In this document: positions 13,301 to 64,000 of the stretch, piece after piece
Layout of the letters: each line of letters begins with the position of its first letter
Position numbering within the stretch: the stretch's first letter is position 1
Virus record (IMG/VR): IMGVR_UViG_3300028045_001344
Location: 87,554 to 151,553 of that record
DNA: 64,000 nucleotides
From: a virus
Direction: 5' to 3' (one strand)
Translations under genes and position numbers: made by a program
The notes under the pieces: model-generated
Database searches by the model: none
What the model was told of the DNA's origin: nothing
Seen by the model: only the letters and a program-made list of their open reading frames with translations

Positions 13301-16300
13301 TGTTGTCTTGCCTCCTGGTAGTTCCAAGAAATCAGTGTGTGTGGCATAGGGATTCTCTTTTGCCATCATAGAAGACATTCTAAATTCAGGCATAATAGAA
13401 TAGTCTTTACCCATTACACGAATATCTTGTGCATATTCGTCATAAGAATTATAAGAAGGATATCTCAGTGATGGTGTTCCAGCGGAATTCGTGACCAAAC
13501 CCATATCAACCATTCTTTTGCGTTCATTTGTCACATTCCACATCAGCCCATAATCTTTATATATTCCACCAGAACTAGTATAATAGCCTGTATCATTTGT
13601 AATAAATCCAGCCGGATAAGTATATGAAATAGAAGCTGTCCAGTATGAAGATTCTGGGCAACTCTGTTCATAATTGGTTTCAAAATTTGTCATTGAAGCA
13701 GACTTATAATATGCAGTGTCGGCGACATCGGAACCCGAGAAATCGACCACCGCATAATACGATTGGTTAAGTGCAACACAAGATTGTGTAAGATCTAATA
13801 TTGGACCACCATCAACTGAAGTGTCGTTGTAATGTAATGTGTTCACGTCCTCGCGATGAAAAGTTTCCCAACACGAACCCGTGTTTCTTTGAAAAAGAAT
13901 TTCTCTTTGAAGGTTGACTTGAACAGAGGTGTATGGTAATCCTGTTACAGAACTTGTAATTTGATCATTCCAGTTTCGCATAATTCTGTAGCGATCTGTT
14001 TCCGGGTCTAATGTTCCAGGTCCAGAGTCAGAGTCAGACTTAAATCGACAAACGTTGTTGCCATTATGCGAGGTCTTTATAGAAGCTACGCTACTTGACA
14101 CCCAAGCGGAATAAGACCAGAGCCCAACGTCGTAGGCATTTTCAGTTTGATCCGGGGCTCCTACCATAATTGAGAATGTCATTGTGTAATCATTCGAACC
14201 CGTCACCACACTTGTGCAGACAGTATCGCATGTTGCGCCCAAGGTGGCTAAACACGCAGAAGAAGTCGAGGCAAGATAAGTGGAGCCCGATGGCTGAAGA
14301 CCCATTCTCATACACCAAAAGCGCACAAGAGGCGTTGGTCCCCCTGGGGGAACGATAGTTCCCGAAGGTTGAAAAGTGTAGTGCCCTATGTTGCCAACTG
14401 TGTATAAAGTATAAATGCCGGTGGTGAAATCGCAACCATAGCATCCCTCCGATCCAGTTCCACCAGGACAAGAAGCGGAGCCAAGATATGTTTGAGCAGA
14501 AGAAGTATCCCAAAAGCCATGGTTCCAGCCACAACACCACGGACCTATGCCGATCCCATTCCACTTATAGTCAATAGTTTGAGCGCCGCAGGAGGTATCG
14601 GTAAAATTAATATATCCACTCGAAGCAGTTATTGGGCAAGTCACATTTCCAACGTGGTTATTACCTGAGAGATATAGTGAAGATGATGGAATAATTTCAC
14701 CATTAAAAACACTAATCAAGTTATCATAATTTAATCTTGTAAGTTCTCCAAAATCGCCGCCTGTCTTCGAAGTATAAGTTGTTGCCAAGATTAGTGTGTC
14801 TGAAGAAGCTGTATTGTGAAAAGTTTTGTTGGTTCCCATTGGCCAGATGCTACTTGCCCAGCCATCAGTGTATCCCAATGAAGATGAAAGAGTTGTTCGA
14901 AAATCAAAATTACCAGTAAGAAGATTTCCGTTATCTCCGAATTCTTGAAGGGTTTCAAGTTTTCTGTTTCTGGTCAACCAATCATCTTTCCAGAAAGTTC
15001 TTCGGTATGTAGAATTTCGATCTATCCCGTTTGAACCATAAGATGCGATTGCGAACCCGTTGAAATCAACTGATGCTGTTTCCGAATAATTTGTGCGACC
15101 TCGGTTTTCCGCTAGTCCTGTATAAATCTGTCTTGGGTAGTTCCATTCAGAGTATTTAAGAAACTTGAATTTATCAGGATTGCGCTGATATTGCTGTCGC
15201 AAAAGATCGTGCATTTGTGTTTGAGGTGTGCGACCAAAGCGGCGTGTTTGAGTATTGTAATCACCAAGCCCTAAATCTTCAGTAAGCCCATAGTTAGCAC
15301 AAAACGAAAGATTGTTGCTAAATGTGTTTCTTATCATAACTGGTGGTATCGAATTTCTCGCAACTCCATCAGCCAATGATGGATTTTGATTTATCAATCC
15401 AGTAGTTAAGGGATTGTATTTGAATGTAACTGGGGGCTCTGTATAGTAAGCTGTTGATCCCGAATCTTTATACCAATTTGGTGTCTCGGGGAAGCTTGAG
15501 TCAGCGGCGAAAATAGCTGCTTTTTCTAAGGGAGTTAGCAATATTTTGTCTTTGGAACCCACCGTAATGATATTGTTATTTTTTTGATAGCGGGCAATTG
15601 ATGTTTCACCAGTCCTTATTTGTTTCCAAGAAGGATATTGATAGGGTCCATCGCGATGTAATAATAAAGCGTGAAGCATATCTCTGGCTGGATTGATGCG
15701 AGGGCACAAATAAGCAAATGCGCGGTTTTCATAATCGCTGTCCGAAGAACTTAAGAGATTTTGTGATTCGACAATCGGATCATTGATATATGTGTTAAGA
15801 CCTACAAAATCTAAAGAAGCGGTGAAGCCGCCAGTCGAAGCAGTATATTCACATGGAACATCAGGCACATCTAACACAATAGACGTATATTTTGCTTGTG
15901 AATAAGCATTATAAATTGGTGTGGCCAAGCTATAAACATCTGCTATATACCCACCCAAAGAAGAATTAACACTATCGCCAAATGTATCACCCATTCTCCA
16001 CCAAGATTGTAGGGCATTCTCGGCTGTGTCGGGAAGGATTGATAAATCATTTGGGCATCCTCCATTATATATCTCGTGTATTGATGCCGATGTTAACGTG
16101 GAATACCAAAAACTAATTTCATCTAAGGCTCCCGAATGAAAATTATAATAATTGTTATAATTAACTGGCTTATCTTTTTGAGCCCCAATAAACGTGCTGG
16201 AAGACACAGTAGTGGTTCGGCCGGAGGCTATATAAGATGTGGGCGGATCTTCATATCCATCAATATAAACATTCAAGTTCCAATCATAGGGTGGGAAGAC

Positions 16301-19300
16301 CGGAGTTGAAGTATTAAACGTAGCTACAATATGGTGCCAGGTGCCGCTAACAATACCGGGCAACCCAACCGACGAAGTATGTTGGCGTATTGTTCCGCCA
16401 GAGTCAGTATCCATAACCTCAAAGATAATCTGATTTCGCGCAGCCGCAGCAGACGCAGTTTGTGATCCAATGTATAGCCGCCAATCACAGTCACCCTTAT
16501 CGACAGCTACACCACCAGTTGACTTCCATCTCGACATCAATACTCGGGGATGATCGTGGCTTGATGTAACCATCATCCAGAGAGAAATTGAGAAATCTCC
16601 CGTTGCGCCATCGGGACCGAAAACACCGGGAATAGAGGGGGTGACAGAAGATACTGTGCCCGGTTCTAAATAACCAATTGTCAGTGGATCTCCTTTCGCA
16701 TTTGTAAAATTTACAGAAGATGAATTAAAGAACCCGCCATGTGGATCACACGATGGATAATGAGGCACCCAGGAACTACCATCCCAATCTAACAAATTAG
16801 ATCGAAACGCATATGCCGAACCGGATGGAGTGAATTGAACCATCGGTGCGTTCGTTGAGAGTGCTCCGCTTGGAACAGTAAAATTAGAACGACCACCATC
16901 ACCTGATCCAAGCAAACCAAATGGTTGGGCTTTTGTATTATCATAAGAGGCGTTTATCCACGAATATTGTAACTCACTTCTTGGAATTTGATGTTGAACA
17001 AACCAGTTATCGTATTGAATACTTGTTGTTAATTCAGTCGAAGAGGTTCCAACTAAGGCACCCAAAGTTTTTGGATTTCTATTGACTTTAAAATATGCGC
17101 CTATTGTGCCGGTGTAACAACAAGCCCTCACAGCATGTTGTTCGGGGGTTGTGCCGTCTCCTGGGCTTCCAGTGGGATCAATTCCAAATGGACCACAATG
17201 TTCCATAGACCACTCGTTAAGAGGCGCACGAACAACCATGTTCCTTTGATTGAGTTCGTTGCGGATTGCATATTCTTCTGCATATAAATCTAGAACACCA
17301 CGCGAACTAACATCAGGTCCACCAGGGGCATTAAATCTTTCTACAAAGATATTTTTTGTTGCGCCGTATTTGCTGAAGTCTGGGAGTTTATAATCTACAA
17401 GTCCAACAACCCACGGCGAAGCAGCATACTCTGGAATAAAGCCACCATTCTTAACAAAGAATCTGTTATTTAATTTTCGCCCTGAAGTTTGTAGGACTTC
17501 ATATTCGTGAGAATAGTTTCCAATAATGGTTGATCCGGTTGTTTGTTTTATGTTGCGAATGTTTACTGGACGCTTAGCCAAAGGTTCTCGCAAAATTGTT
17601 GAACGGGCTTGGTGGGTTGTGCGGGGTGTTATTTCCAAATCGGAACCATCAAAACCTAGGTTCCAAGCTTCTGGTCTGCACTCAGCGGCTAAAGAACCAG
17701 TCGCAAGTGATCCGGTTGATGGCGAACAATTTGTGTTTGGAAAAGGAACATGCCTGTGAACCCAGCCACCCACATACTTTTCAGTAAACGGACCTTGGGC
17801 TGGAATTTCATAGTCACCACCATATACATCATTGTGATAATTTCTGAGGTCGATCTGTTTCGGTGTGGCTCCCATTGGTGGAATTGCGCTAGCATATCCC
17901 GTTGTCACCGAGGAACTGTATAAATCAAAAGGAGCAAAAATGTCTCCATCACCCGAAGCATAACTAATCGGATTATTAGTGAGTTTATAACGAAGCTTTA
18001 CTTTATCATTCGGATTAATAATATCATCACAATCAATATCATCTTCAACTTGAGAAGAACTAATAGTTAGTTGTGTTGATGTTCCAAACGGTAGTTCTGT
18101 GTGAGCATACTGAAGATTTTTTATTTTTGATACATTCGTTCCGCCTTTTAGTTCGGGCATTATTTTTGTTTTAAAACGATAGGGTTTTGTAAAGTTCTTC
18201 AGGGCATATGTACTTCCCTCATATTGTACGGGTGTCACGCCCGCGATATCTGTTAAAGTGGGTGGCGTAGAATTTGGTCGCCAATCATTAGCCTCGCGAA
18301 ACGTATTTCTCTGTGAATCAATAATAGGATCACCAGAAGAAAATGTTTCGGCTTCCGCTCTTTCGTGTGCCCATACGCAGCTAGAAGTTTGGTTCAAAGG
18401 AATTGGAGCTTTGCCACGCTTATAGGGATACATCATTTCATTAATGCCGTATAGACCTGCTTCTGGATCTTTAGCCTTCATCTCTAGTGTGGGAAACTTA
18501 TTCCAGTATTTATTTCTTTCTAAAACATGACTCTCGATCATAGAGAATACTTTGGGAGAAAAATTAGCACTTGCGGGGAATAGTTGTGTTACCATCTTTC
18601 CCATTGAATCATCAATCCATTTAAAATAATCAACAAATTTTTCAAAATCCATTGTGGAGTTCTGAACTCTCTCGAAAAATAGTTGCCGCATTTTTTCAAG
18701 CGACTTGTAATCTTGACGATATCTATTGACCGGCTCGCCAATCAAATTATTGAAATCAATAACGGTGGCAAAGAGTTTTATCATTTCCGCAGAAATGATT
18801 GCATTCATACTTTTTTCAATAGTAAAGAAGAATCTTATTGGTCTAGTATCTCTAGTAAAAATTTCGATATCTTCATCATTACGAATTTGAACCATGTCAG
18901 AACTATTAATAACTTCGGGCGAGTCTTGCTTTGCGGTATATACAAACTCACGGATGGTGGCATCTGCGTTGCTTGCGGGAAACGAAAACCCCTTTCCGGG
19001 GTGTTTGATTTTTACAAGATCACCATAATCACCATAAGGAGCCGCAGCAGAAGTTGAGCCAGAAGAAAAATCTCCAACAAAAAATTCACCTAGAGCATCG
19101 GAGCCAGTGACTTGAGCGAAATCCCACTGAAGCGCCAAGGTTTCTATTTCAGGAACCTTAGTGACTTCTTCTGAAAAGAGATTACCGGGCTGGTTAAGAA
19201 AAGTATTTTCTCCGGGATGCTTACGACCAAAGTTGGAAGGATCTTTTGCATGAGCTAATATTGTAGAATCTTCTAAGTAATCCATCCAATATCGAACAGA

Positions 19301-21904
19301 AGATATTTTGGTATCAGATCTTTCTAAAACCGAACCAGTGAAATTAGTTCTATGAGCACCAACGTACATTCTCTTAGAAGATGATAAAAAGCTTTGACCG
19401 TCTGCGTATGACATAGTCCCGGTAATTCGAAATGAATTATCAGTGGAATCTAAGATATTATTATAACCTATAAATTCTACATCATAGGTGGTAGGAGTGG
19501 AGCCTAGAACAACATTGGGCCACTGGTAGTTTGTTGGCTTTACTTTTACTGCTATGTTCCACCTAGAGTTTTCATATACATCCTTTTGTAGACTACTGGT
19601 AAGTGTTGGGAAAACTCCGCCAGTGCTACTTGAAAGCATAAACTTGGCATCTTTATCATTTGCGGCTGGGCGAATTGCATATATTTGAAAGTTAGCAGTA
19701 TCCGGGGATAGCCAGGTCAGATCAGATTCCGTAGCACTTGGCGTGTGACAGCCACCCAAAGAGGAAGTAAGGAATGGGGTAGACCACCAGGAAATATTGT
19801 CAGGAGATACCTGCTTCGGAAAAAGAGATTCTAATTGAAAAGTCTGACCACGATAAATTTGATCAGCAGAAGAAGATATATAAGATAGTGATGAAGCATC
19901 CGATGTGCTTGATGTTTGAAAAACAGTAGCTTCCCAACTAGAAGTAGTATTAAAATTTGCGTATTCTTTACGAGTTATAGTAGATACATAATTTTCTTTA
20001 ATGTCATAAGTTACTTCATCTCCATAAAGATTTAGTTTGATTAATTCTTCGCCTACCCCATAACACCGTATTAGGTTACGAATAGATTTTTCTGCGCCTT
20101 TGGATTTGAAGATATAAACCAAATTATTATAGATGTTCTTGTAGATTCTATTTTTTGTATCATCCAGTTTTTCTGCAAAATTAAGAACATCATCACGATT
20201 TGCCAATGATTCTAATTCGGCAGCGTCAGCAAATAATTCTCCCACTGAAAGACCTGATGATTCTAAAAGCCTGTCCGCAAATGGAAGTGGCTTAAAACTA
20301 GAACTGATATAATCTACATCCTTAAGTCTGGGCAATCTTTCAGTTTGAAGCTGCAAAATATCAAAATAACTTCCCATCACTTGAATGAGTTTTAAAAGGG
20401 TGTGACGATCATTTACTGCGTCATCATCTCTGATCCAGCCTGGTAAGGAATTATAAATGGACGCATTATTATTTATATCATAATTGAACCCTTGCAATAG
20501 CAAATTTTCCAATGCCGCTGATACCAGTGGGTTGTATGAATATAAAATCGGATCTTTGAATTCTACTAAAGACGCACTAGATTCTACCATAGCAGAACCA
20601 GTATCTCGTGAGCCAATATTGTACCCCGTCCAAGCACCATTTGTTATACGACCAGAATAATCTAAAATTATTGCATCTGTATTTTCGACTGAAGCTGTAT
20701 TGATAATACCTTCGTTGAATTTGTAATAAACACCCAAATCAACGGGATTACTATAACTATATTTTGTGGGAGCATACCAATTTTCAGAAACATCGGTATT
20801 TGTTCCGCCGCCAACTTGCGTAAACCAATATTGACCAATCTGTTCAGAACTTCGTTTTGTTTTCCAAAACCTAAACTCATCCATGGAACCTGAAAGTTTT
20901 GCAAAGCCCAAGCCGCCCGTAACGGGTGTGTCTATGGTGGTGCCCATAGCGCCAATCCAACCCAGCATAGAGCCAGTAATTTCGCCAATACTTCCAGTAG
21001 ATATTGTGTCGTTGAGTTCACCATTGAGATAAAGTTTAGCTTCTAAATTTGCCCCATTATTGACAAAAGTAAAGGCATAGTGATTCCAAGTAGAACCAGT
21101 AAGATCAATGTTTTGACCGAGCTGCCCAAGATTAGAATCCAAAAACCCACCGGCAGTTCCCGACTGAAAGGCAACTGAAAACTGATGAGGCGTAATACTA
21201 AAATCACATTCAACACGAAAACGACCATAAGTGCCGCCAAGAGATGCACTATTCCATATATCAACAAATATCTGCTTGTCAGACTCAACCGGATCTCCGG
21301 TCCATCCATTCTTCTTGAACCAAAATTCTGCTGTGTTTCCAGCGGCGGCATTGAGTTCTAAATTAGATTGTTGATTAGTATCTTCGTCATAATAGTTGGC
21401 ATCAGGAACAGCACCTTGATGAGAATCAAAATATTGCGACAAAGAAGCATTAGGCACATTAGATGGATGAGGACCACCTTTGAAAGAAATATATTCATCT
21501 ACGGTAGGGGCTTCATAGCCACTAACACCACCCGGACCAACTCCACCATAATTTACACCAAGGTTTATATAGCCGGTTGTTCGGGGATATTCATTATCGT
21601 AAATATATTTATCAAAAGACGAACCACCATATAGCCACTCGGTTTGCTCTTTTTTGGAGCCATCATAAGGAAACTCGTTTCCAATATATGAGAAGGCATC
21701 AGTATAATATTGTTGTGCTGAGCCATACCGGGAAAAGTTGGCTGGCTCCGAAAAATCTATTTGTAAATCTACTTGATTCTTTAATTTAATAGTAGAATTA
21801 ACCCAGTCAGCGCCCTCGCCTTCGGGAGCCAAATCGTTCAGGCTTTTAGAAGCAAGAACTTTCTGGTTTTTATATAATTCAAATAGATCTTTAATATTCG
21901 ACAT
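10361..21904 (-). CDS. Giant virion protein, 3847 aa, with two LamG/concanavalin-like domains
   Basis: A single uninterrupted 11.5-kb reading frame. Two regions, about residues 175-360 and 1755-1950, have the features of LamG/concanavalin A-like jelly-roll domains: AEFWFKKNGWTG or FSISLWMMV strands, the TWNHYAFTF / TWHHIVATF strand, LYLNGELND / VYIDGYEDP, and a closing MDEFRFW / LDEISFW strand. Such domains usually bind carbohydrate or protein ligands. The C-terminal 60 residues are a Gly/Ser/Asp-rich low-complexity tail with a repeated SEGTGA motif. There is no signal peptide. The gene sits between the gp6 side of the baseplate operon and other structural genes, so a very large tail-tip, fibre or baseplate component is likely. 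It may be cleaved after synthesis, but no protease site is evident. Confidence 0.8.
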   Translation of the reverse strand: MSNIKDLFELYKNQKVLASKSLNDLAPEGEGADWVNSTIKLKNQVDLQIDFSEPANFSRYGSAQQYYTDAFSYIGNEFPYDGSKKEQTEWLYGGSSFDKYIYDNEYPRTTGYINLGVNYGGVGPGGVSGYEAPTVDEYISFKGGPHPSNVPNASLSQYFDSHQGAVPDANYYDEDTNQQSNLELNAAAGNTAEFWFKKNGWTGDPVESDKQIFVDIWNSASLGGTYGRFRVECDFSITPHQFSVAFQSGTAGGFLDSNLGQLGQNIDLTGSTWNHYAFTFVNNGANLEAKLYLNGELNDTISTGSIGEITGSMLGWIGAMGTTIDTPVTGGLGFAKLSGSMDEFRFWKTKRSSEQIGQYWFTQVGGGTNTDVSENWYAPTKYSYSNPVDLGVYYKFNEGIINTASVENTDAIILDYSGRITNGAWTGYNIGSRDTGSAMVESSASLVEFKDPILYSYNPLVSAALENLLLQGFNYDINNNASIYNSLPGWIRDDDAVNDRHTLLKLIQVMGSYFDILQLQTERLPRLKDVDYISSSFKPLPFADRLLESSGLSVGELFADAAELESLANRDDVLNFAEKLDDTKNRIYKNIYNNLVYIFKSKGAEKSIRNLIRCYGVGEELIKLNLYGDEVTYDIKENYVSTITRKEYANFNTTSSWEATVFQTSSTSDASSLSYISSSADQIYRGQTFQLESLFPKQVSPDNISWWSTPFLTSSLGGCHTPSATESDLTWLSPDTANFQIYAIRPAANDKDAKFMLSSSTGGVFPTLTSSLQKDVYENSRWNIAVKVKPTNYQWPNVVLGSTPTTYDVEFIGYNNILDSTDNSFRITGTMSYADGQSFLSSSKRMYVGAHRTNFTGSVLERSDTKISSVRYWMDYLEDSTILAHAKDPSNFGRKHPGENTFLNQPGNLFSEEVTKVPEIETLALQWDFAQVTGSDALGEFFVGDFSSGSTSAAAPYGDYGDLVKIKHPGKGFSFPASNADATIREFVYTAKQDSPEVINSSDMVQIRNDEDIEIFTRDTRPIRFFFTIEKSMNAIISAEMIKLFATVIDFNNLIGEPVNRYRQDYKSLEKMRQLFFERVQNSTMDFEKFVDYFKWIDDSMGKMVTQLFPASANFSPKVFSMIESHVLERNKYWNKFPTLEMKAKDPEAGLYGINEMMYPYKRGKAPIPLNQTSSCVWAHERAEAETFSSGDPIIDSQRNTFREANDWRPNSTPPTLTDIAGVTPVQYEGSTYALKNFTKPYRFKTKIMPELKGGTNVSKIKNLQYAHTELPFGTSTQLTISSSQVEDDIDCDDIINPNDKVKLRYKLTNNPISYASGDGDIFAPFDLYSSSVTTGYASAIPPMGATPKQIDLRNYHNDVYGGDYEIPAQGPFTEKYVGGWVHRHVPFPNTNCSPSTGSLATGSLAAECRPEAWNLGFDGSDLEITPRTTHQARSTILREPLAKRPVNIRNIKQTTGSTIIGNYSHEYEVLQTSGRKLNNRFFVKNGGFIPEYAASPWVVGLVDYKLPDFSKYGATKNIFVERFNAPGGPDVSSRGVLDLYAEEYAIRNELNQRNMVVRAPLNEWSMEHCGPFGIDPTGSPGDGTTPEQHAVRACCYTGTIGAYFKVNRNPKTLGALVGTSSTELTTSIQYDNWFVQHQIPRSELQYSWINASYDNTKAQPFGLLGSGDGGRSNFTVPSGALSTNAPMVQFTPSGSAYAFRSNLLDWDGSSWVPHYPSCDPHGGFFNSSSVNFTNAKGDPLTIGYLEPGTVSSVTPSIPGVFGPDGATGDFSISLWMMVTSSHDHPRVLMSRWKSTGGVAVDKGDCDWRLYIGSQTASAAAARNQIIFEVMDTDSGGTIRQHTSSVGLPGIVSGTWHHIVATFNTSTPVFPPYDWNLNVYIDGYEDPPTSYIASGRTTTVSSSTFIGAQKDKPVNYNNYYNFHSGALDEISFWYSTLTSASIHEIYNGGCPNDLSILPDTAENALQSWWRMGDTFGDSVNSSLGGYIADVYSLATPIYNAYSQAKYTSIVLDVPDVPCEYTASTGGFTASLDFVGLNTYINDPIVESQNLLSSSDSDYENRAFAYLCPRINPARDMLHALLLHRDGPYQYPSWKQIRTGETSIARYQKNNNIITVGSKDKILLTPLEKAAIFAADSSFPETPNWYKDSGSTAYYTEPPVTFKYNPLTTGLINQNPSLADGVARNSIPPVMIRNTFSNNLSFCANYGLTEDLGLGDYNTQTRRFGRTPQTQMHDLLRQQYQRNPDKFKFLKYSEWNYPRQIYTGLAENRGRTNYSETASVDFNGFAIASYGSNGIDRNSTYRRTFWKDDWLTRNRKLETLQEFGDNGNLLTGNFDFRTTLSSSLGYTDGWASSIWPMGTNKTFHNTASSDTLILATTYTSKTGGDFGELTRLNYDNLISVFNGEIIPSSSLYLSGNNHVGNVTCPITASSGYINFTDTSCGAQTIDYKWNGIGIGPWCCGWNHGFWDTSSAQTYLGSASCPGGTGSEGCYGCDFTTGIYTLYTVGNIGHYTFQPSGTIVPPGGPTPLVRFWCMRMGLQPSGSTYLASTSSACLATLGATCDTVCTSVVTGSNDYTMTFSIMVGAPDQTENAYDVGLWSYSAWVSSSVASIKTSHNGNNVCRFKSDSDSGPGTLDPETDRYRIMRNWNDQITSSVTGLPYTSVQVNLQREILFQRNTGSCWETFHREDVNTLHYNDTSVDGGPILDLTQSCVALNQSYYAVVDFSGSDVADTAYYKSASMTNFETNYEQSCPESSYWTASISYTYPAGFITNDTGYYTSSGGIYKDYGLMWNVTNERKRMVDMGLVTNSAGTPSLRYPSYNSYDEYAQDIRVMGKDYSIMPEFRMSSMMAKENPYATHTDFLELPGGKTTSSVSADGALNLDFIREYSNSDFLKEFDLLMDQQEDSEGWMSVGSLSLTCKGIKKLLPYDGFYPMSRTTQLSTLFADALDYSSSVGGRNLQLYKWDKAANCFVATTEEDYTSSETLNSIRKQGITTPFFAPGIVYNSIKSGVGVGWTVVTGTCLSDTYTLQNVNTSSVSGNLSGGDFLNTVVYKDPSIARKIDFETIYDMNKLFHKDPGKPSGTVDAAFHIDYPEALDGGFGLDLDCGLTGCSAQGENIDSPNQHFMLSWNGRNPENKISKYNQAMNNFLSECVRFFLRDPKNPETFNQGQLNYFESSPVVACHFVSGATYYMDVILEKTEAKPFTMCESGFSGDFSYTPSQFTAKDPVCRLPDFDEPCEYATWSLGPENTPPVDRSIYNTYSTFDGRYFGPATQKWKSIFNWSSASEGAHYNVSDPAQAPYTPPYYYGKSIARIKYTPGDEWTKQAFENTNPIDVFFEKMEIEFVNTELEEKIKLGNMNYVASTTSPSASVFEDTFSTSSFAYQMAQNVGDSINLKGIKNELKIQYDGVGKLISATNTYSPGKSRWIISSKFECPILDFSNQETQTLTVSGGLHPPTSLSSSGFLDQQPVRLGKGMWSGYGVRKGDSNFVTMGISKVDPAIISPTQIVDGVEISTSLINAFGFNNVSGQTSLHKEVGVLAKKRKISEAVVAIPFTGQANIPDTPGYLPGMASTANPAQMSSLYNMLNEGRNGEVNLFAIDRKRFDPYREAPPNAELPKNSITDMVKMMNEFVLPPSMDFVQNPGIDPFVMYIFKFEQELDQVDLQDIWQGVLPSIGVKAEIEDVTIKHSLLDSNEFFHKRRLPTDVRWLVFKIKKRATMEYSQVTQWNTDDVGGLVTPQPQPDFRSTGQTTFASPIPRIETKFSYNWPHDFYSLVELGKINTEVEFNKKLLPASTEVDPIGKSEGTGASNADQDQSRSEGTGAQSGDSGASSNDGTSHRGTFDPTGGQG

Positions 21905-38279: not shown

Positions 38280-38677
38280 TTCTCCAAGTATTTTACCACT
38301 TTATCATGAATTTTTGAATCAACATTTTCTTTCCACGAATCATCCTCGTTATTTATTTGATTGCGAATTTGTGTTGCCGAAATAAAGCCAATATCTTTCG
38401 GTGGAACATGTTCAACAATTCCATATCCAACTCCGCGTCCATAATTGACCGATTCAATATCTGGTATGGATAAAATTTCAACATCGTCATCGGCATACGC
38501 AGTTTCTAGCATATCAATAGTTTGCTCAGTTGTAAATGGATTTTTTTCATCAGGAGGAATATCTCTTACGCAAATAAGAACAGGCACTCCTTGATTTAGT
38601 TTTTGACCGATAAGCCATTTGTGACCATTGTGTAAAGGTTGCCACCTACCTATAAACATTGCTCTTTTGTTATTCAT
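38276..38677 (-). CDS. Nucleotidyltransferase, HxGH superfamily
   Basis: GRWQPLHNGH (residues 10-19) is the HxGH ATP-binding motif of adenylyl/cytidylyltransferases, and ISATQIRNQ (about 100-108) is the matching ISxTxIR motif. At 133 residues it is shorter than NadM-type nicotinamide mononucleotide adenylyltransferases (about 170). The substrate is not fixed by the sequence: NMN, a sugar phosphate or a phospho-alcohol are possible. It lacks the QxRNPxHRAH motif of ATP sulfurylase, so it should not be read as the missing first step of sulfate activation. It overlaps the HAD gene upstream; a partial copy of both lies 1.1 kb away. Confidence 0.8.
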   Translation of the reverse strand: MNNKRAMFIGRWQPLHNGHKWLIGQKLNQGVPVLICVRDIPPDEKNPFTTEQTIDMLETAYADDDVEILSIPDIESVNYGRGVGYGIVEHVPPKDIGFISATQIRNQINNEDDSWKENVDSKIHDKVVKYLEK

Positions 38678-39042
38678 TTATTTTCTCCTTGTTCAATGAA
38701 ATCAATTGTTTTGTGCCATGCGTTCGGATCTGTTTTATCGAACCTGATAGCATGGTCATCAATATAATATTTGGCTGGTTGTTTGATGTTTGTAACATCA
38801 TCAAAGAAATGAGATAAATTATATTTTTCCAGCCACTTCCTAATAGGTTTAACTGGTCGGCTTGATACTATTATCAAACGATAGCCAGCATCCTTTAGCT
38901 TTTGTAAAGAAGGAATAGAGCCTGGCATTGGTGGATCGTAAGCATTATCTAGACCTTGAAATCCTTTGGAATATTGATGAATGACTCCATCAAAATCTAT
39001 TGCAATAGTATTGTTTTTAAATTCTGTTCCAACTTCCTTCAT
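38674..39042 (-). CDS. HAD-like phosphatase, 122 aa
   Basis: IAIDFDGVIH (residues 13-22) is HAD motif I with Asp16 and Asp18. VSSRP near residue 60 fits motif II, and YYIDDHAIRF near residue 92-101 supplies the acidic C-terminal motif. It is a small cap-less HAD, likely acting on a phosphorylated metabolite, perhaps one linked to the HxGH nucleotidyltransferase encoded directly downstream with overlapping ends. A copy about 90% identical by eye over 270 bases is present at 39912-40182, where the C-terminal motif has been lost. The start overlaps the sulfotransferase stop by four bases. Confidence 0.82.
   Translation of the reverse strand: MKEVGTEFKNNTIAIDFDGVIHQYSKGFQGLDNAYDPPMPGSIPSLQKLKDAGYRLIIVSSRPVKPIRKWLEKYNLSHFFDDVTNIKQPAKYYIDDHAIRFDKTDPNAWHKTIDFIEQGENK
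38772..39042 (-). repeat. Direct repeat, copy A (HAD gene 5' part)
   Basis: This 271-base stretch aligns without gaps to 39912-40182 at an exact offset of 1140 bases. I count about 30 differences, mostly at third codon positions. It marks duplication of the HAD gene. Confidence 0.88.
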
Positions 39043-39818
39043 CTTATATCCTCAATCGAATATTTATAACATTCTATGTCTTCCCTATATTTTTTATTAA
39101 CCAAAGAAATACATTTATCATTATAAAAGCATATATCAGGCGGAAGTGCATTATGTGGCAAATCTGACCATTTCCAACAAGAGACATTTTTTTTCCACTC
39201 AATGTCCTTCGTAGCAAAACGTCCGGTCATATAATTCATCTCTCTCAGGATGTTGGGATCAAAAGAAGTCCCAAAGGATATATTGACTTTGCTTATATCT
39301 TTTTCAATTTGTTCCAATTTACACACATGATCAAAGAAGTTTTCATATTTATCTTCTATAGATCTTTTTTGCGGTTGCCAATGTTGATCATCCTTTTTCT
39401 TATTACTTATGACCTCTAAAAATTCCACAAAGGACAAATCATCGCCCAAATTATTACGACCTGATATTTGCTTCTTGCGCCCGAACGCATGTCGATAAGA
39501 ACTTACAGCCCGACTAAAAGGATTTCTTACTATTTTTAGCGTTAAAATTTGTGGTGATAACACTTCGTCTAAAAATAAAGGCTTGACTTTTGTTTTATAA
39601 TATTCGTGATTACGGTACTTGTGAATCCAAATATATTTTTTTAAAGCATATTCTAAAACACCAATTTCCTTGTAAAACATTAACATCACTAAGACACTTC
39701 CACACTTCGCATTCCAATCTATAAAAATTTTTTTTTCAAAATCATAGAGAGGGGGCGGTCCACCAAGCCATGGAAATATTTTTTGACGCGGATTATAAAA
39801 AACTTCTCTACCCTTCAT
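39039..39818 (-). CDS. Sulfotransferase (carbohydrate type)
   Basis: From the ATG at 39818 (AAGGGG upstream) the protein is 259 residues. IFIDWNAKCGS (about 31-41) fits the 5'-phosphosulfate loop. LKIVRNPFSRAVSSYRHAFG (about 90-110) is a strong 3'-phosphate-binding motif with the RxPxxRxxSxY pattern of PAPS-dependent carbohydrate sulfotransferases. It would move sulfate from PAPS to a sugar hydroxyl. The frame extends upstream to 39944, but that part lies over the chimeric gene in another frame and is unlikely to be translated. Its start overlaps the chimera's stop by 11 bases. An APS kinase gene lies about 1 kb upstream. Confidence 0.8.
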   Translation of the reverse strand: MKGREVFYNPRQKIFPWLGGPPPLYDFEKKIFIDWNAKCGSVLVMLMFYKEIGVLEYALKKYIWIHKYRNHEYYKTKVKPLFLDEVLSPQILTLKIVRNPFSRAVSSYRHAFGRKKQISGRNNLGDDLSFVEFLEVISNKKKDDQHWQPQKRSIEDKYENFFDHVCKLEQIEKDISKVNISFGTSFDPNILREMNYMTGRFATKDIEWKKNVSCWKWSDLPHNALPPDICFYNDKCISLVNKKYREDIECYKYSIEDIR

Positions 39819-40182
39819 CTTGTTCCCCTTGAATATAAAGCTGATTTTGAATGGTTGACCACAATGGGTTTTGATTGTAAATATGTGTTGCCGAAATAAA
39901 GCCAATATCTTTGGGTGGTTGTTTGATGTTTGTAACATCATCAAAAAAATGAGATAAATTATATTTCTCTAGCCAATTCCTAATAGGTTTAACTGGTCGG
40001 CTTGATACTATTATCAAACGATAGCCTTCATCCTTTAGCTTTTGTAAAGAGGGGATGGCACCGGGCATTGGTGGATCATATGCATTGTCCAATCCCTGAA
40101 ATCCTTTAGAATACTGATGAATAACGCCGTCAAAATCTATTGCAATAGTATTATTTTTGAATTCTGTTTTAACTTCAATCAT
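39808..40182 (-). CDS. Chimeric HAD-nucleotidyltransferase-sulfotransferase remnant
   Basis: A 124-residue open frame built from three pieces. Residues 1-88 are a near-identical copy of the HAD protein at 38674-39042, ending at NIKQP. The next segment (PKDIGFISAT) is the C-terminal ISxTxI part of the HxGH nucleotidyltransferase at 38276-38677. The last 20 residues (IYNQNPLWSTIQNQLY) resemble the C-terminus of the sulfotransferase at 40175-40849 (IYKNNPAWSKIEEKVY). The HAD motif IDDHAI and the nucleotidyltransferase HNGH motif are both missing, so it is probably not an active enzyme of either kind. The frame is nevertheless intact and overlaps both neighbours in normal operon fashion. It may be a decaying duplicate or a stabilised fusion. 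Confidence 0.75.
   Translation of the reverse strand: MIEVKTEFKNNTIAIDFDGVIHQYSKGFQGLDNAYDPPMPGAIPSLQKLKDEGYRLIIVSSRPVKPIRNWLEKYNLSHFFDDVTNIKQPPKDIGFISATHIYNQNPLWSTIQNQLYIQGEQDEG
39912..40182 (-). repeat. Direct repeat, copy B (HAD part of the chimera)
   Basis: This is the partner of 38772-39042 at an offset of 1140 bases. At its low-coordinate end the similarity switches, within a shared GGTGG/GCTGG region near 39912-39918, to the nucleotidyltransferase gene (39871-39918 matches 38357-38404). Confidence 0.88.
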
Positions 40183-58425: not shown

Positions 58426-59751
58426 TTAAAGATTTTTTGCACATAAGGTTGCGACCTTGCTTCTTTCACCTTTAATAAATGTGATATGTCCTGTGATATC
58501 AAAATATTTTAATTTTTCAATCACGTAGGTTAAACCGTTTGTAGTCTCATCAATATTCACATTATCTATTTGTTCAATGTCACCAGTCAAAACAATTTTA
58601 GTTCCTTCACCTACTCTAGTAAGTATAGTCTTTATTTCATGCCGTGTCAAGTTCTGGCACTCATCAATAATAATATAAGCATTTTGAATTGAGCGACCAC
58701 GAATATAAGTTAGAGCCTCGACTTCAATTATTCTTTTATCCATATACGACTCTAGCATTAAATTATCATCACCAAATAAGAATCTTAAGTTATCTTGAAT
58801 TGGCGCAAGCCATGGCACCATTTTATCCTCTAGAGATCCAGGTAAATAGCCAATGTCTTTTCCCATGGGTTGAACTGGTCTAGAAACAATTAATCTATTA
58901 TATACTGAAGATTCTCCCATTATCTGTTGCAATCCCGCTGCAATAGCACACAAAGTCTTTCCGCTTCCTGCTTTACCAATAAGAGAAACCACAGGAACAT
59001 TTGGATCTAAAAGTAAATCCAACGCACAATTTTGTTCTTTGTTTTTTGGTGCTATGCCCCATCCATCTGATTCTTTATGTTGAGGAATTTTTTTAAATTC
59101 TGTATTCTCATCAATGAATCTAGTAATTGCTGTTTTCTTTTCATTCGACGAAGATACCAGCATTACATATTGATTGGGATATAATTCTGCTTTGTCATCT
59201 ATCGCATTATACAGATAAACGCTTTCACCTGTATAGAAACGGTCAATTATTTGATCATCCACAAGTAGCTTTGTAAAGCCACCATACAATTCAGAACTTT
59301 CCTTTATAACATTTTCGCTACTATAGTTTTCTGCATTTACTCCAATAGCATCACACTTAATTCTTAGGTTAATATCGTTGGATACTAATATCACCTTACG
59401 GCTTGGAAACTCTTTTATAAGTGTAAGTGCGGCGGCAATAATTTGATGATCGGCTGTATTAGGATCATAACCAGAAGGAAGTTCTGATAAATCTGGTGTT
59501 TTAGTAAAAACCAAGCCCCGGCCTTTTCTAATTCGAATTCCTTTTTGAAAACTTCCTCTATTTCGTAATTCGTCTAGGGTTCTAATAATTCCTCTAGCAT
59601 TTGCACCGACACCGTTTGGTCTTTTTTTGTTGTTGTCTAATTCTTCTAACACTACAAGGGGAACATATACATCTCCATTTCCATAAGAAAAGATTGAATT
59701 ACAATCTGTGAGGTAAACGCTCGTATCAAGAACATAAATCTTTTTTGCCAT
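58426..59751 (-). CDS. phoH: PhoH-family ATPase with N-terminal PIN domain
   Basis: Residues 1-145 form a PIN nuclease domain (YVLDTSVYL with Asp9, VVLEEL, NTADHQII with Asp101, LVSNDINLR with Asp126). From about residue 230 follows a PhoH domain with Walker A GKAGSGKT near residue 260 and Walker B YIIIDECQN. The two-domain PhoH2 form is an ATP-dependent RNA helicase/nuclease in bacteria. PhoH genes are widespread in marine phages, without a settled function. GGAAG precedes the ATG. The gene is divergent from the plus-strand protease across a 112-base gap. Confidence 0.93.
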   Translation of the reverse strand: MAKKIYVLDTSVYLTDCNSIFSYGNGDVYVPLVVLEELDNNKKRPNGVGANARGIIRTLDELRNRGSFQKGIRIRKGRGLVFTKTPDLSELPSGYDPNTADHQIIAAALTLIKEFPSRKVILVSNDINLRIKCDAIGVNAENYSSENVIKESSELYGGFTKLLVDDQIIDRFYTGESVYLYNAIDDKAELYPNQYVMLVSSSNEKKTAITRFIDENTEFKKIPQHKESDGWGIAPKNKEQNCALDLLLDPNVPVVSLIGKAGSGKTLCAIAAGLQQIMGESSVYNRLIVSRPVQPMGKDIGYLPGSLEDKMVPWLAPIQDNLRFLFGDDNLMLESYMDKRIIEVEALTYIRGRSIQNAYIIIDECQNLTRHEIKTILTRVGEGTKIVLTGDIEQIDNVNIDETTNGLTYVIEKLKYFDITGHITFIKGERSKVATLCAKNL

Positions 59752-59863: not shown

Positions 59864-60724
59864 TTGAAAAATGCGGTTGCAAAATTAGTTATAGTATTTA
59901 TGATGTTCATTACTTTTATGGGATGTGCATCATGTGCGTCAAGCACAGCCCTATTTGGACCAGGAGATTTATTCAGAGATAAAAGACGTTCCTTCATCAA
60001 GATTGATATTTATAAAAACATCTACCTAACAAAAACCTCCTCTGCGGTAGCCGAAGCAAATTTAGAAGAATATGAAATTGATTTGCGCTCATCAGCTTCG
60101 GGCTTTATTGTTGGACACGATAGAGAAATTACACTCGTAGGAACTTCAGCGCACGTTTGCAGTATTCTTTACGGCAATCAAATAAATTATTTTGTGCAGG
60201 ACTACTCACCTAAGAACCCTGAATGGAAGATGACCGAAAGGGCTTCATATATCCTAAACGATTACAAAGGTGAAACATATGCGGCAATTCCAATTGCTTT
60301 TGATTTTGAAGCCGATATATGTATACTGGGTTCAGCCAAGATATCGCGTCCAGCATTGAAAATTTCTAATTCTAAGCCAATAATTGGAGAGAAGTATTAT
60401 AACATAGCCGCCCCTATGGGATTGTGGTCTTCTAAAATGATCCCGTTATTTGAAGGATTTTATTTGGGTAGTAAGAAGGTTCGTAGCAACCGAAAAACTT
60501 CGTATGTTTTTTCTATTCCTGCCAAGGGTGGATCTTCGGGCTCCCCAATACTGAATAGTTATGGTGAAGTTGTTGGAGCATTACACTCTGCTTATAGAGG
60601 GTTTGAAAATTTGTGTATGGCTACCACAAATAAAGAGATTTACTTAATCTATCGTAAATCTATGAGAAAATTATTGAAAGATTATGATAAATATAAACTT
60701 ATCATTGACCTTATGAACATTTAA
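59864..60724 (+). CDS. Trypsin-like serine protease lipoprotein
   Basis: The only plus-strand gene. The N-terminus is a lipoprotein signal peptide: two Lys, a hydrophobic run to residue 19, and FMGC with Cys21 as the likely lipidated residue. The triad is visible: His97 in TSAHVC, Asp151 in EADICIL, and Ser225 in GGSSGSPIL (GxSGxP). The N-terminal extension to residue 75 is unassigned. It should be exported and tethered to a membrane, there cutting proteins. The start is TTG, since no ATG gives a complete signal peptide; the ribosome site is weak. Its stop overlaps the stop of the next minus gene by three bases, leaving no room for a terminator. Confidence 0.85.
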   Translation: MKNAVAKLVIVFMMFITFMGCASCASSTALFGPGDLFRDKRRSFIKIDIYKNIYLTKTSSAVAEANLEEYEIDLRSSASGFIVGHDREITLVGTSAHVCSILYGNQINYFVQDYSPKNPEWKMTERASYILNDYKGETYAAIPIAFDFEADICILGSAKISRPALKISNSKPIIGEKYYNIAAPMGLWSSKMIPLFEGFYLGSKKVRSNRKTSYVFSIPAKGGSSGSPILNSYGEVVGALHSAYRGFENLCMATTNKEIYLIYRKSMRKLLKDYDKYKLIIDLMNI

Positions 60725-60939: not shown

Positions 60940-61053
60940 TTACCATAAATAGGATCTAAGATCAAGAAAAAGAAAAAAAATAATGGAGGTGGCGGGAGTC
61001 ACAAATTTACCCCCACTTGGGTCCAAGTGATTACCTTTTGTATCTTTGCTCAT
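60940..61053 (-). CDS. Small membrane-type peptide, 37 aa
   Basis: ATG at 61053 follows GGAGG at seven bases, an excellent ribosome site. The 37-residue product begins MSKDTKGNHLDPSGG and ends with a hydrophobic segment (SIIFFLFLDL). The frame extends upstream to 61179, but that part overlaps the next gene and has no ribosome site. The DNA at 60984-60997 repeats the last 14 bases of the tmRNA gene. Function is unknown. Confidence 0.55.
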   Translation of the reverse strand: MSKDTKGNHLDPSGGKFVTPATSIIFFLFLDLRSYLW

Positions 61054-61102
61054 TTCTCTTCCTCCGCGAATTCCCACTCTTCCGGGGAATAAATAATATA
61101 AT

Positions 61103-61381
61103 CTACTTTTCCATCTTCTCTGGAAACATGTATTCCTGAACTGATAGGCTTGATATCCACATCCTCTCCTCATTCTCAAACTCTAAGAGGAATGATGCCG
61201 ATCCCGTAATGAATGCCTTTGGAAATACTGATTTGATCACCTTTCCCTTCTGTCCGTGATACGCCTCTGGAACCAAATCCGTTCGTGAATAGTTTTCTCG
61301 AATTGTCAGGAACTCGTGTTCGCACTTTACGTCTAGATCGATACAGTTTGGATACTTGTATGGGTCAAACATGTTAGTCAT
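61103..61381 (-). CDS. Small hypothetical protein, 92 aa
   Basis: From ATG 61381, after AAGGAAG, the protein has 92 residues. It begins MTNMFDPYKYPNCIDLD and includes GQKGKVIKSVFPKAFITG, which suggests a small beta-barrel. The frame is open further upstream, but that part would lie inside the tmRNA gene and is not translated. The start lies 22 bases after the tmRNA 3' end. Confidence 0.66.
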   Translation of the reverse strand: MTNMFDPYKYPNCIDLDVKCEHEFLTIRENYSRTDLVPEAYHGQKGKVIKSVFPKAFITGSASFLLEFENEERMWISSLSVQEYMFPEKMEK

Positions 61382-61402
61382 TTTCTTCCTTAATAAGTTA
61401 TT

Positions 61403-61742
61403 TGGAGGTGGCGGGAATCGAACCCGCGTCCGTAGCAATGTCCAGTTCAAGTCATTCACAGGTTTAGATTATTTTTTTAAACAATCAAATTGCTTGTTAA
61501 GTTCCCGTTGTTTCACAAACATTAACAACTCGGATGTTTATTTGTCGGCAGAATCACCTGCTTATTCACTATTGGGTAACGAGGTCAGTGAAGACCCAGC
61601 AAACTACGCTGCTAGAGCGAGAGATTGAAAATGATTATTGTTATTGGCAATTATCAAAATTTCAATAAGTTTAAGGTCATTTATTGAAGTAGACCACCTG
61701 CACTATCCATTTCTATTACCACGTCGAAACCAGGACACCCCC
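61403..61742 (-). ncRNA. ssrA: Transfer-messenger RNA (tmRNA)
   Basis: The 5' end GGGGGTGTCCTGGTTTCGACG is the classic one-piece tmRNA start. The 3' end carries a T-arm (GGGTTCGATTCCC) and CACCTCCA, so the acceptor stem GGGGGTG/CACCTCC pairs over seven positions with one G-U; CCA is not encoded. The tag frame starts at the resume codon GCC (61648) and reads ANNNNHFQSLALAA-TAG, ending in the LAA-type degradation signal. tmRNA rescues stalled ribosomes and tags the product for proteolysis. The total length of 340 nt is normal. Phage-borne tmRNA is known in some large phages but uncommon. Confidence 0.95.
61604..61648 (-). other. tmRNA proteolysis-tag reading frame
   Basis: Fourteen codons from GCC (61646-61648) to GCG, then TAG (61604-61606), encode ANNNNHFQSLALAA. 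The ending ALAA is the usual ClpXP/ClpAP recognition end. The Asn-rich front and HFQS differ from the E. coli tag (ANDENYALAA). Confidence 0.88.
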
Positions 61743-61755
61743 GTTAAATATTCTT

Positions 61756-61872
61756 CTATAAACATCCATTAGCGGATAATGACATCCACAATAGTAGAAA
61801 GAAAAAAGTAATAGCCATCAGCGAACTAAGAGCTACAGTGATATAATCTTCTTTTGGAATTCTATTCTTCAT
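61756..61872 (-). CDS. Small single-pass membrane protein, 38 aa
   Basis: ATG at 61872 overlaps the stop of the 90-aa gene by 11 bases. The 38-residue product starts MKNRIPKEDYITVALSS and has one strongly hydrophobic stretch (LMAITFFFLLLWMSLS). The gene ends 14 bases before the tmRNA 5' end. Translation is probably coupled to the upstream gene. Confidence 0.55.
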   Translation of the reverse strand: MKNRIPKEDYITVALSSLMAITFFFLLLWMSLSANGCL

Positions 61873-62134
61873 TGCCTATAAGTATAAGCTCTTCCCTGTT
61901 AAGGCTATCTAAATTTGGATATTTAGGATATACATTTTCGTATGCGTCCTTGAGTAAGGCAATCGCCCTCCTCATCATCCACTCTTCCTGCACCATCTCA
62001 TCTTCTATTTTTTTGTTTAAATCATGCTCTACTAACGCATCTTCTTTTCTGATCTGCACTTGTTTGAGCACATTCGATTGACGTTTTATAATCAATTTAA
62101 GCTCTTCTATTACTTCTTTGCTCAGCCAGTCCAT
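61862..62134 (-). CDS. Small charged helical protein, 90 aa
   Basis: The 90-residue product is Glu/Lys-rich and almost certainly a coiled coil (EVIEELKLIIKRQSNVLKQ, then KIEDEMVQEEWMMRRAIALLKD). No ribosome site is seen. Its ATG overlaps the end of the small membrane-protein frame at 62122-62208, and its stop overlaps the 38-aa gene. The three may form a small membrane-linked complex; this is speculation. Confidence 0.66.
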   Translation of the reverse strand: MDWLSKEVIEELKLIIKRQSNVLKQVQIRKEDALVEHDLNKKIEDEMVQEEWMMRRAIALLKDAYENVYPKYPNLDSLNREELILIGNEE

Positions 62135-62208
62135 GATATATTATACCACGAACATATGAAAGATGCAATACATAAAATAAAAAATATTAAAACTATTTTA
62201 GATATCAT
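62122..62208 (-). CDS. Possible small membrane peptide, 28 aa
   Basis: ATG at 62208 stands six bases after AGGGTG. The product MISKIVLIFFILCIASFIC plus nine residues is almost wholly hydrophobic. An earlier in-frame ATG at 62232 would give 36 residues. The frame fills the 102-base gap between its neighbours and overlaps the next start by 13 bases. Coding status is plausible but unproven. Confidence 0.45.
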   Translation of the reverse strand: MISKIVLIFFILCIASFICSWYNISWTG

Positions 62209-62236
62209 TTTGATCACCCTGATCATCATCATCTGT

Positions 62237-63091
62237 TCAAGATTCTTCGAGTTTCCATCCTTCGCCGTGACCGGGGTAATCGTCAATGGCGTCATCTCTG
62301 AAATCCATCTTACGATCTTCAGCATCAAAATCGCGGATACGCGGGGCCTGAGTGCGCTTATTAACAATATCCATGATTGCGCCGTATGTCTTAGGGGCAC
62401 TTTCTTTTAGCATTTCCCTTTCTTCCTGAAAGGCGTCAATGAGATCGTTAATTGCTGCAGACCAGTCTGGGTCTGAATCTTCTTGAACGACTACATCATC
62501 ATCTTCATTAATTTCCATCGCATGATCGGGAAGCTGCGTGACAACCAATGCCGATTCTCCCTCTTCGCCCGCAGGACCCATATCCATGGGATCTTCCAAG
62601 AGGCCTTGAATTGAAGCCATAATTTCTTCCACAGCAGACGTATAGCCGGCCCCAAATGCTTCATCTGGGGAAAGATCAGCAATTGCTGGTTCGGCTTCTT
62701 CTGGGCCCATTTCTGGGCCGCCACACTCCTCTTCCATAGCGCCCGTATCGGTTGTCAACTCCTTTCGGGTCAACTTCTTTCGGGTGATTATGTCATTAGA
62801 CAGGCCTTGCAAGATTCTATCCTGCTCTACTTGTGATCTAATTTTTACTGTAATTCCGCTATTAGGTTTTGCGGCCGCTGTGGTCGGGGTACTCCAAGGG
62901 TCATGACTATGATCACCTGCAGCGCCATCACCAATTTGCATTTCCTTAACAGACCCTTCTTCGAGCCAATTATCGAACGAGAAATCATTGAAATTTGCGT
63001 TAGTTTTCTCAACATTCTCTTTGGTTTCTTCTTTTCTCTCGCTGAGGAATCTGCGAGCATCAAATCTTTTCTTATTCTTAATAGCCTTCAT
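62237..63091 (-). CDS. Acidic hypothetical protein, 284 aa
   Basis: The N-terminal 35 residues are strongly basic (AIKNKKRFDARRFLSERKEE), the middle carries ITVKIRSQVEQDRILQGL, and most of the rest is very acidic (EEECGGPEMGPEEAEP, EINEDDDVVVQEDSDPD). There is no signal or membrane segment. Low complexity and charge separation resemble scaffold or assembly proteins, but no family is recognised. TAGGAG lies upstream of the ATG. A scaffold role is only a guess. Confidence 0.7.
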   Translation of the reverse strand: MKAIKNKKRFDARRFLSERKEETKENVEKTNANFNDFSFDNWLEEGSVKEMQIGDGAAGDHSHDPWSTPTTAAAKPNSGITVKIRSQVEQDRILQGLSNDIITRKKLTRKELTTDTGAMEEECGGPEMGPEEAEPAIADLSPDEAFGAGYTSAVEEIMASIQGLLEDPMDMGPAGEEGESALVVTQLPDHAMEINEDDDVVVQEDSDPDWSAAINDLIDAFQEEREMLKESAPKTYGAIMDIVNKRTQAPRIRDFDAEDRKMDFRDDAIDDYPGHGEGWKLEES

Positions 63092-63142
63092 GGTAAAGGT
63101 CTCCTATATTATAGTATAAATAGTATGAAAAATAGGTAAATC

Positions 63143-63592
63143 CTATTCTTCGAATGGGTCATCGCAGGGGCATATATCGCCTCTCACCTTGATTCCACTA
63201 TCGGAAACTTCGATATCATAGCAGCCATCCGGGCCTTTTCCGAAGATCTGAACATAATAAGCATTATTATTATCTGTATCAAGAACTTTCATTGTATCAA
63301 TATCTGAACACGACCAGTCCCATTGGTCTTGCCAGGCGCCCCAACCTTCAGTATCATTCCAAAAAAGAACACCATCTTCTTTGGGGAACACACACAGATC
63401 CTCGAAACCAGGAACTAATGTGTCAACAATTGCGTTCTTTGTTTCGAAATACCACCATTTGTGAAGAATATCATCTTCATCACAAGTTTTGATTTTATTG
63501 CCGTCCCACCCGCCACCATACTTATATCCAGTCAGGCGAGGCTCAGAGGAACAGCTAGTAATAAAGAATAGCGATATCAGAAAGGCTTTCAC
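63143..63592 (-). CDS. Putative lipoprotein, 149 aa
   Basis: Begins at GTG 63592 with a short signal peptide (MKAFLISLFFITSC); ITSC with Cys14 is a good lipobox. The mature part is acidic, Trp-rich and has about seven further Cys, which suggests disulfide bonds and an extracytoplasmic site (CDEDDILHKWWYFETK, then DICPCDDPFEE at the end). The ribosome site is weak. Possible roles include superinfection exclusion or host-envelope change; none can be shown. Confidence 0.68.
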   Translation of the reverse strand: MKAFLISLFFITSCSSEPRLTGYKYGGGWDGNKIKTCDEDDILHKWWYFETKNAIVDTLVPGFEDLCVFPKEDGVLFWNDTEGWGAWQDQWDWSCSDIDTMKVLDTDNNNAYYVQIFGKGPDGCYDIEVSDSGIKVRGDICPCDDPFEE

Positions 63593-63609
63593 ATTAGTAA
63601 CTATTACAT

Positions 63610-63768
63610 TTAATAAAAATTGAGCTTTTTAATTTTCTTTTCTTTTATTTTATAGAAATTCATAATTTTTGCTCGGTACTCTTGGCGGCGCTGATAGCAT
63701 TGGCCCCCTTGAACAAGATTTAATTGCTCCATTGTCAACTCTATAACGTCCTCTTTCTTTACACCCAA
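63610..63768 (-). CDS. Small basic protein, 52 aa
   Basis: The frame starts with TTG at 63768 (AGAGG eight bases upstream) and reads MGVKKEDVIELTMEQLNLVQ, then a basic C-terminus (KIKEKKIKKLNFY). An internal ATG at 63733 would give a 40-residue form. Amino-acid make-up is protein-like, and it begins just after the upstream stop (63771), so it is probably a genuine short gene. A longer frame across this area in another phase is Cys/Arg-rich and looks like a shadow. Confidence 0.5.
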   Translation of the reverse strand: MGVKKEDVIELTMEQLNLVQGGQCYQRRQEYRAKIMNFYKIKEKKIKKLNFY

Positions 63769-63770
63769 CT

Positions 63771-64000
63771 CTACATCCTCTGTTCAGGGGTATTAACTTC
63801 GACACCGCCCATGTTTTGGTCAGGCATATCAACTTTTTCTCTCTCGAGTTCATCTTCTTGGACTTCTCCGACAATAGTTTTAAAGCTTTCGACGTGTGCA
63901 ATAATCGCCCCTTTCATAGATGCATCGGTTATATTAGCAGCAGTTGTGACGATTTGGTCCAAAAGAGCACAAATTTCATTCGTTAGTTTGGGATCATCTG
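63771..64000 (-). CDS. Partial hypothetical protein (5' end outside window)
   Basis: The frame is open to the window end at 64000 and stops at 63771, giving at least 75 residues. It includes PKLTNEICALLDQIVTTAAN, a helical segment, then an acidic tail (GEVQEDELEREKVDMPDQN). A TTG at 63962 could be taken for a start, but the open frame upstream is protein-like, so the gene probably continues beyond the window. No family is recognised. Confidence 0.62.
   Translation of the reverse strand, partial: DDPKLTNEICALLDQIVTTAANITDASMKGAIIAHVESFKTIVGEVQEDELEREKVDMPDQNMGGVEVNTPEQRM

Follow-up and report, generated by a model that had tools for sequence, protein, structure and literature searches.

The 64,000-nucleotide stretch of phage DNA analyzed here (the window, positions 87554-151553 of a virus record 151,553 bases long) carries a complete, structurally intact tmRNA gene of the standard, one-piece form. 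Our favored reading, which we hold to be likely, is that this is a working standard phage tmRNA whose allele was acquired by exchange, and whose 3′ end is a recurrent breakpoint through endonuclease cassettes. The window tmRNA itself belongs to an already known kind of tmRNA; the novelty lies in an ORF-bearing form of the gene found in sister phages and in the exchange at the 3′ end.

ARAGORN found a single tmRNA in the window, on the minus strand and with the tag ANNNNHFQSLALAA* (Table 1). The Rfam tmRNA model RF00023 matched it over the full model length (1-374) at 120.7 bits (E 1.3e-46), with a gathering score of 47 bits, and the Rfam search gave no other RNA-family match in the window. An earlier note on this DNA had proposed a one-piece phage tmRNA here, to be checked by just such a covariance-model search, and these two results confirm it. 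Its coordinates and one-piece form stand, while the strand is corrected to minus and the gene has no encoded CCA. Two other gene forms were rejected for the window tmRNA: the permuted two-piece form (RF04321; 3′ half before 5′ half), as the gene order is not permuted, and the group I intron form, as the T loop is uninterrupted.

Table 1. Features of the tmRNA locus; positions are those of the window unless a contig is named.
Feature	Position	Strand	Evidence or remark
PhoH-like gene	58426..59751	-	lineage marker; served to find sister phages
Remnant of tmRNA 3′ end (GACTCCCGCCACCTCCA)	60984..61000	-	17 nt, 1 mismatch; 419 bp from intact end
92-aa ORF (MTNMFDPYKY...) of downstream cassette	61103..61381	-	
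tmRNA + upstream flank of G001 lineage	61402..64000	.	82-86% identity in most aligned pieces
tmRNA gene, standard one-piece form, 340 nt	61403..61742	-	ARAGORN; RF00023 120.7 bits; covariation
Discriminator A	61403	-	
Acceptor stem 3′ strand CACCUCC	61404..61410	-	
T arm GCGGG-UUCGAUU-CCCGC	61411..61427	-	covariation; homology to other lineages ends here
Possible PK3 (AAACAU/AUGUUU, GUUGUU/AACAAC)	61507..61539	-	weak in relatives
PK2 (GGGU/ACCC, UUCACU/AGUGAA)	61565..61597	-	second stem covaries in 6/6 pairs
Tag reading frame GCC...UAG, ANNNNHFQSLALAA*	61604..61648	-	ARAGORN (nt 95-139)
PK1 (GGUC/GACC, UUCAAUAA/UUAUUGAA)	61661..61695	-	
Acceptor stem 5′ strand GGGGGUG (7 bp)	61736..61742	-	third base pairs U at 61406 (G3:U, alanine identity); GU 16/16
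EndoVII/HNH-like gene behind tmRNA 3′ end, then remnant	L007 6493-7017; L151 634-1185; L306; L322		
Replaced T loops (AGTCGGTG or AGTCGGAG)	L023 2322-2794; L133 4005-4476; L123; L150 near 2215-2245		

The structure was written by hand as acceptor, T arm, P2, PK1, hairpin, PK2, hairpin and PK3, and pairs were counted over 16 viral tmRNAs including that of the window. In this structure 80% of cells are paired, as opposed to 38-52% when the partners are slid by 1-3 columns. Two-sided changes occur in 31 pairs and 129 cells, where shuffles give 51 +/- 6 cells and the slid controls 14-47; these compensatory changes back P2, PK1, PK2 and the T stem. PK1, which lies before the tag, has 7 pairs with two-sided changes, and PK2 lies behind the tag. 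The earlier note had the 5′ and 3′ ends pairing as a tRNA-like domain, and the 7-bp acceptor stem, a G3:U pair present in all 16 tmRNAs and a covarying T stem and P2 bear this out. It had also named failure of the covariance model, or loss of the pseudoknots or the G-U pair on folding, as outcomes that would speak against a tmRNA, and we found none of these. PK3 is weakly supported (43-51% of cells paired in relatives), and inspection by eye found no clear PK4 in the window tmRNA. The minimum free energy of the RNA corresponds to z = -2.1.

The tag is encoded by GCC AAU AAC AAU AAU CAU UUU CAA UCU CUC GCU CUA GCA GCG UAG, with an alanine resume codon and a hydrophobic AA end; the bacterial-type ending noted before is present in ANNNNHFQSLALAA as LAA. 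The same note had called the tag unusual, but it turns out to be typical of a viral group. A looser tag-pattern search returned at least 60 intact viral tmRNAs with the head ANNN[N/D][H/Y]F, where NNNN followed by HF is the rule and the variation sits in the tail (EQRLAA, DSVRLAA and EYALAA are examples), so that the ANNNNHF head is common property of the group. The tag is open in all 60 related viral genes, and the intact tmRNAs of relatives occur in independent contigs. The closest two relatives of the window tmRNA are 91% and 90% identical to it and share the tag head, and the tag pattern search also gave two viral contigs with ANNNNHFQAVALAA. The tag head has a role in E. coli, and on that basis we would guess that the conserved head is the target of a host protease adaptor.

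It is plausible that this tmRNA would serve ribosome rescue or protein tagging during infection. In such a scheme the RNA would be transcribed in infection, trimmed by host enzymes and given its CCA by them, then charged with alanine and bound by SmpB. SmpB was not found in the phage record or in ten relatives (11 records), so the host protein would be needed. The charged RNA would free stalled ribosomes and append ANNNNHFQSLALAA, whose LAA end would suit host ClpXP-type proteases. That the gene is instead a passenger, or decaying, with no role in infection, is something we consider very improbable. Such a gene would fit with a tmRNA scoring above the cut-off in only part of the records (30 of 40 chosen records; short RF00023 matches of 76-96 nt in this search were set aside as probable tRNAs), but the compensatory changes in P2, PK1, PK2 and the T stem, the invariant G:U pair and the open tags of all 60 related genes argue against it.

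As for the source of the record, a T4-like myophage is indicated by PhoH, a gp55-like sigma factor and baseplate wedge proteins. ARAGORN found no tRNA genes in stretches covering the record, and a promoter scan of the window stayed at chance level. Elsewhere in the window, a single 3847-aa ORF lies in the structural region (10361-21904), and translations alone suggest a long run of glycosyltransferase-, nucleotide-sugar epimerase/dehydratase- and methyltransferase-like ORFs at 35345-56845, with APS-kinase-like and asparagine-synthase-like ORFs in the same run, as well as a near-identical pair of HAD-like ORFs (38674-39042 and 39808-40182). A protease-like ORF (59864-60724, plus strand; PHROG 9683, E 1e-5) adjoins PhoH on the opposite strand.

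A host could not be read from the tag. A scan of genomes for ANNNN.[H/Y]F gave scattered bacterial tmRNAs among the matches listed, with ANNNNNFALAA, ANNNNNFAVAAVA and ANNNNHFAAAAVA among their tags, and a class-wide search found tags of this type in 2 of 71 genomes. The suggestion that a one-piece form argues against a host with a two-piece tmRNA proved weak as well, for two reasons. Phage Melnitz, which infects OM43, has a two-piece tmRNA of the alphaproteobacterial kind and a host of another lineage, so that its tmRNA kind mismatches the lineage of its host (PMC9004378). In addition, tmRNA alleles of differing architecture swap at the same locus in the phages studied here.

The lineage of the flank changes exactly at the 3′ end of the window tmRNA. 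From 61402 onward the window is 82-86% identical to G001 (L007) in the aligned pieces closest to the tmRNA and 85% beyond them, falling to 68% over the final 0.2 kb, as opposed to just 64-76% over the remaining genome. On the PhoH side it is about 91% identical to contigs such as L010 and L013 up to 61000-61065 and 90% identical to G037 up to 61401, and as far as 61401 the homology here is to the G003/G037 lineage. Colinearity of G000 extends to G003, at up to 97% identity, and to G001 at 64-76%, except for the tmRNA and its upstream flank, where the main pieces reach 85-86%. Sister phages are 88-92% identical over 5-6 kb of this region yet carry quite different tmRNAs, of 254 nt in G033/G034 and of 528 nt with the tag ANDNVALTLAA in G003/G031, and the window tmRNA has at most its last 29 nt in common with them (61403-61431, 100%). 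The tmRNA of G002 is 91% identical to that of the window and has unrelated flanks. Altogether three architectures swap among close relatives: a minimal one of 244-256 nt, the standard one of about 340 nt and a long one of 463-529 nt that houses a protein gene. From the lineage switch, together with the remnants and endonuclease genes described below, we infer homing-type exchange at the tmRNA 3′ end, in which a single crossover at that point would have brought in the window allele from a phage that is only distantly related.

Our main doubt concerns the junction in the window itself, since the contig is unclosed and ends 2.6 kb away from it. The tmRNA could be real and functional and the junction an assembly chimera, in which a G001-like tail was joined to a G003-like phage at the 29-nt conserved end. 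The G001-like part indeed makes up only the final 2.6 kb of the metagenomic contig, 29 nt are identical at the joint, and no second record with this junction was found in a scan that may leave out near-identical records. Stretches of 29-32 nt are, however, short for a false join at usual assembler word sizes, and a like switch and remnant occur in the independent contigs G001, G003/G031, G037, L150, L151 and L306/L322. We therefore regard a chimera as unlikely, if by no means negligible.

A remnant of the tmRNA 3′ end sits behind a 0.4-kb cassette in the window, and in the sister phages L013 and L094 the tmRNA itself has its 3′ end at the position of this remnant. The cassette holds a 92-aa ORF for which family searches gave no function; protein copies 98-100% identical to it occur in L149-L152, where they adjoin other tmRNA alleles. 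Remnants behind cassettes are also present in G001 (an exact copy, 591 nt downstream), G003, G037, L150 and L151, and that of L306/L322 is 12 nt long. In G001, L306, L322 and L151 an EndoVII/HNH-like endonuclease gene starts 63-69 nt past the tmRNA. These cassette genes match PHROG endonuclease VII/HNH families, and the layout of endonuclease and remnant recurs in three lineages other than that of the window. The window cassette is without an endonuclease, G000 has no homologue of the relatives' endonuclease, and none of 91 loci had an endonuclease homologue upstream within 2.5 kb.

A 3′ end left intact at one border, with a displaced copy at the other, is also what an integrase attachment site classically looks like, and genomic islands are known to use ssrA as a site (PMC11915505). 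The tmRNA 3′ end could thus be such a site, with the cassettes brought in by site-specific recombination. We found no tyrosine integrase (PF00589), however, in any of 14 records including G000, G001 and G003, the window's record having no integrase match, and a prophage attachment site was rejected on this ground. The cassettes are moreover small, and those that bear an enzyme encode an EndoVII/HNH-like nuclease, which makes site-specific recombination improbable. Under the favored reading, the recurrent breakage at the 3′ end would most likely come from targeting by endonuclease-bearing cassettes, and insertion of a cassette would leave the displaced remnant behind.

The T arm varies in a manner that may bear on such targeting. 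Its alleles differ among relatives by compensatory changes, and four contigs have AGUCGGUG or AGUCGGAG (8 nt) in place of the T loop UUCGAUU while retaining the T stem. Possibly these changes confer immunity to cutting. We infer that the endonuclease cassettes may use the T-arm region as their homing site, and SegB of the T4 tRNA cluster is a comparable case. SegB is a free-standing T4 homing endonuclease at that cluster, tied to exchange of the region between phages (PMC2988022, PMC13096335), and is likewise encoded by a small gene next to an RNA gene. It differs in being GIY-YIG, whereas the candidate homing enzymes described here are EndoVII/HNH-like and adjoin the 3′ end of a tmRNA, a remnant of which follows the cassette.

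The long tmRNA genes of sister phages (about 450-529 nt) contain a complete ORF that follows the tag/PK2 part and precedes the 3′ half. It has 63-69 codons and is preceded by an SD sequence. Both halves surround the ORF in 20 contigs (14 contigs; L023, L133 and L035; L106; L150 and L151), and three more are truncated at a contig end; L124, L127, L138, L150 and L151 are examples. With about 19 datasets represented among the contigs, the arrangement is not explained by assembly error. L150 and L151 represent a diverged lineage with a diverged 61-codon ORF and another tag (ANDNVEIDDFAIAA in L151). Selection on the ORF is strongly purifying: all 12 differing bases between the ORFs of L127 and L133, and all 6 between those of L124 and L016, are at third positions. 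Between groups of the ORF, synonymous sites approach saturation; the arrangement is therefore either old or renewed by exchange. The RNA around the ORF is preserved as well, with 97.5% of cells paired across 14 ORF-bearing genes and two-sided changes in the acceptor, the T stem and P2, which brackets the ORF. The minimal tmRNAs (244-256 nt) correspond to this tmRNA minus the ORF; those of L094, L107, L110, L111 and L114 have just PK1, the tag and one further pseudoknot.

The inner ORF matched no PHROG or Pfam family and no isolate phage homologue at E 0.01. An AlphaFold2 model gives a two-helix hairpin (mean pLDDT 85), which is a generic fold. Other phages have standalone relatives that share the CACACACAGGAG leader, and gene and leader therefore probably entered together. 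A family of small GYEIR/PYEIR proteins (L367-L446; about 60-77 aa, predicted two-helix hairpin, conserved CACACACAGGAG leader) is widespread and unnamed in phage contigs.

We rejected the permuted form for these genes, as the 5′ half comes first and the 3′ half last, and the intron form, as the insert is outside the T loop and none of the ORF-bearing relatives scanned matched an intron family; RF04321 matches on some relatives were weaker and overlapping. In our view the sister-phage gene is probably an RNA gene and a protein gene in one, a fourth form of tmRNA gene in which the tag is open and the ORF takes the place of PK3-PK4, and its transcript would be either cut, into a non-permuted two-piece tmRNA and an mRNA, or kept whole and translated. 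In a whole transcript, ribosomes finishing the tag could possibly re-initiate at the inner ORF. Among open-licence papers we found no description of a protein gene inside a tmRNA in such a layout.

The 2025 tmRNA database holds 97,179 sequences in standard, intron (T loop) and permuted forms (PMC11915505). The window tmRNA is of the standard form, while the ORF-bearing sister genes fit none of the three. Relative to standard ssrA (RF00023), the window tmRNA is alike in part order, acceptor G3:U, T arm, P2, PK1, LAA tag and PK2, but is on a phage, has no encoded CCA, a weak PK3, a PK4 that is not clear, and the tag head ANNNNHF. Phage tmRNAs are established, with 402 of 18,146 phage genomes having one (PMC9004378) and 79 unique phage sequences in the database (PMC11915505); Streptomyces phages were among those with tmRNA in a phage-record search. 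Like that of the window, those described are complete tmRNAs on a phage. No isolate phage had a similar whole tmRNA gene, matches in 50,697 phage records covering just about 60 nt of the tRNA-like end. The permuted tmRNA of Melnitz (PMC9004378) shares the marine T4-like myophage setting, and like the sister-phage genes has an intervening sequence between tag part and acceptor part, but the gene order here is not permuted. Group I intron tmRNAs (PMC11915505) are likewise interrupted by non-tmRNA sequence; their insert is in the T loop and splices, whereas that of the sister phages lies between PK2 and P2 and encodes a protein.

The window adds one phage tmRNA, and its ANNNNHF tag is the mark of a widespread viral group. 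The locus matters more than this single tmRNA, since it makes the exchange of tmRNAs between phages directly testable, and the swapping of architectures amounts to a natural experiment on which parts of a tmRNA are dispensable. If the inner gene of the sister phages is translated from a working tmRNA, it would be a new way to pack two genes into one RNA, and rescue could be coupled to protein production.
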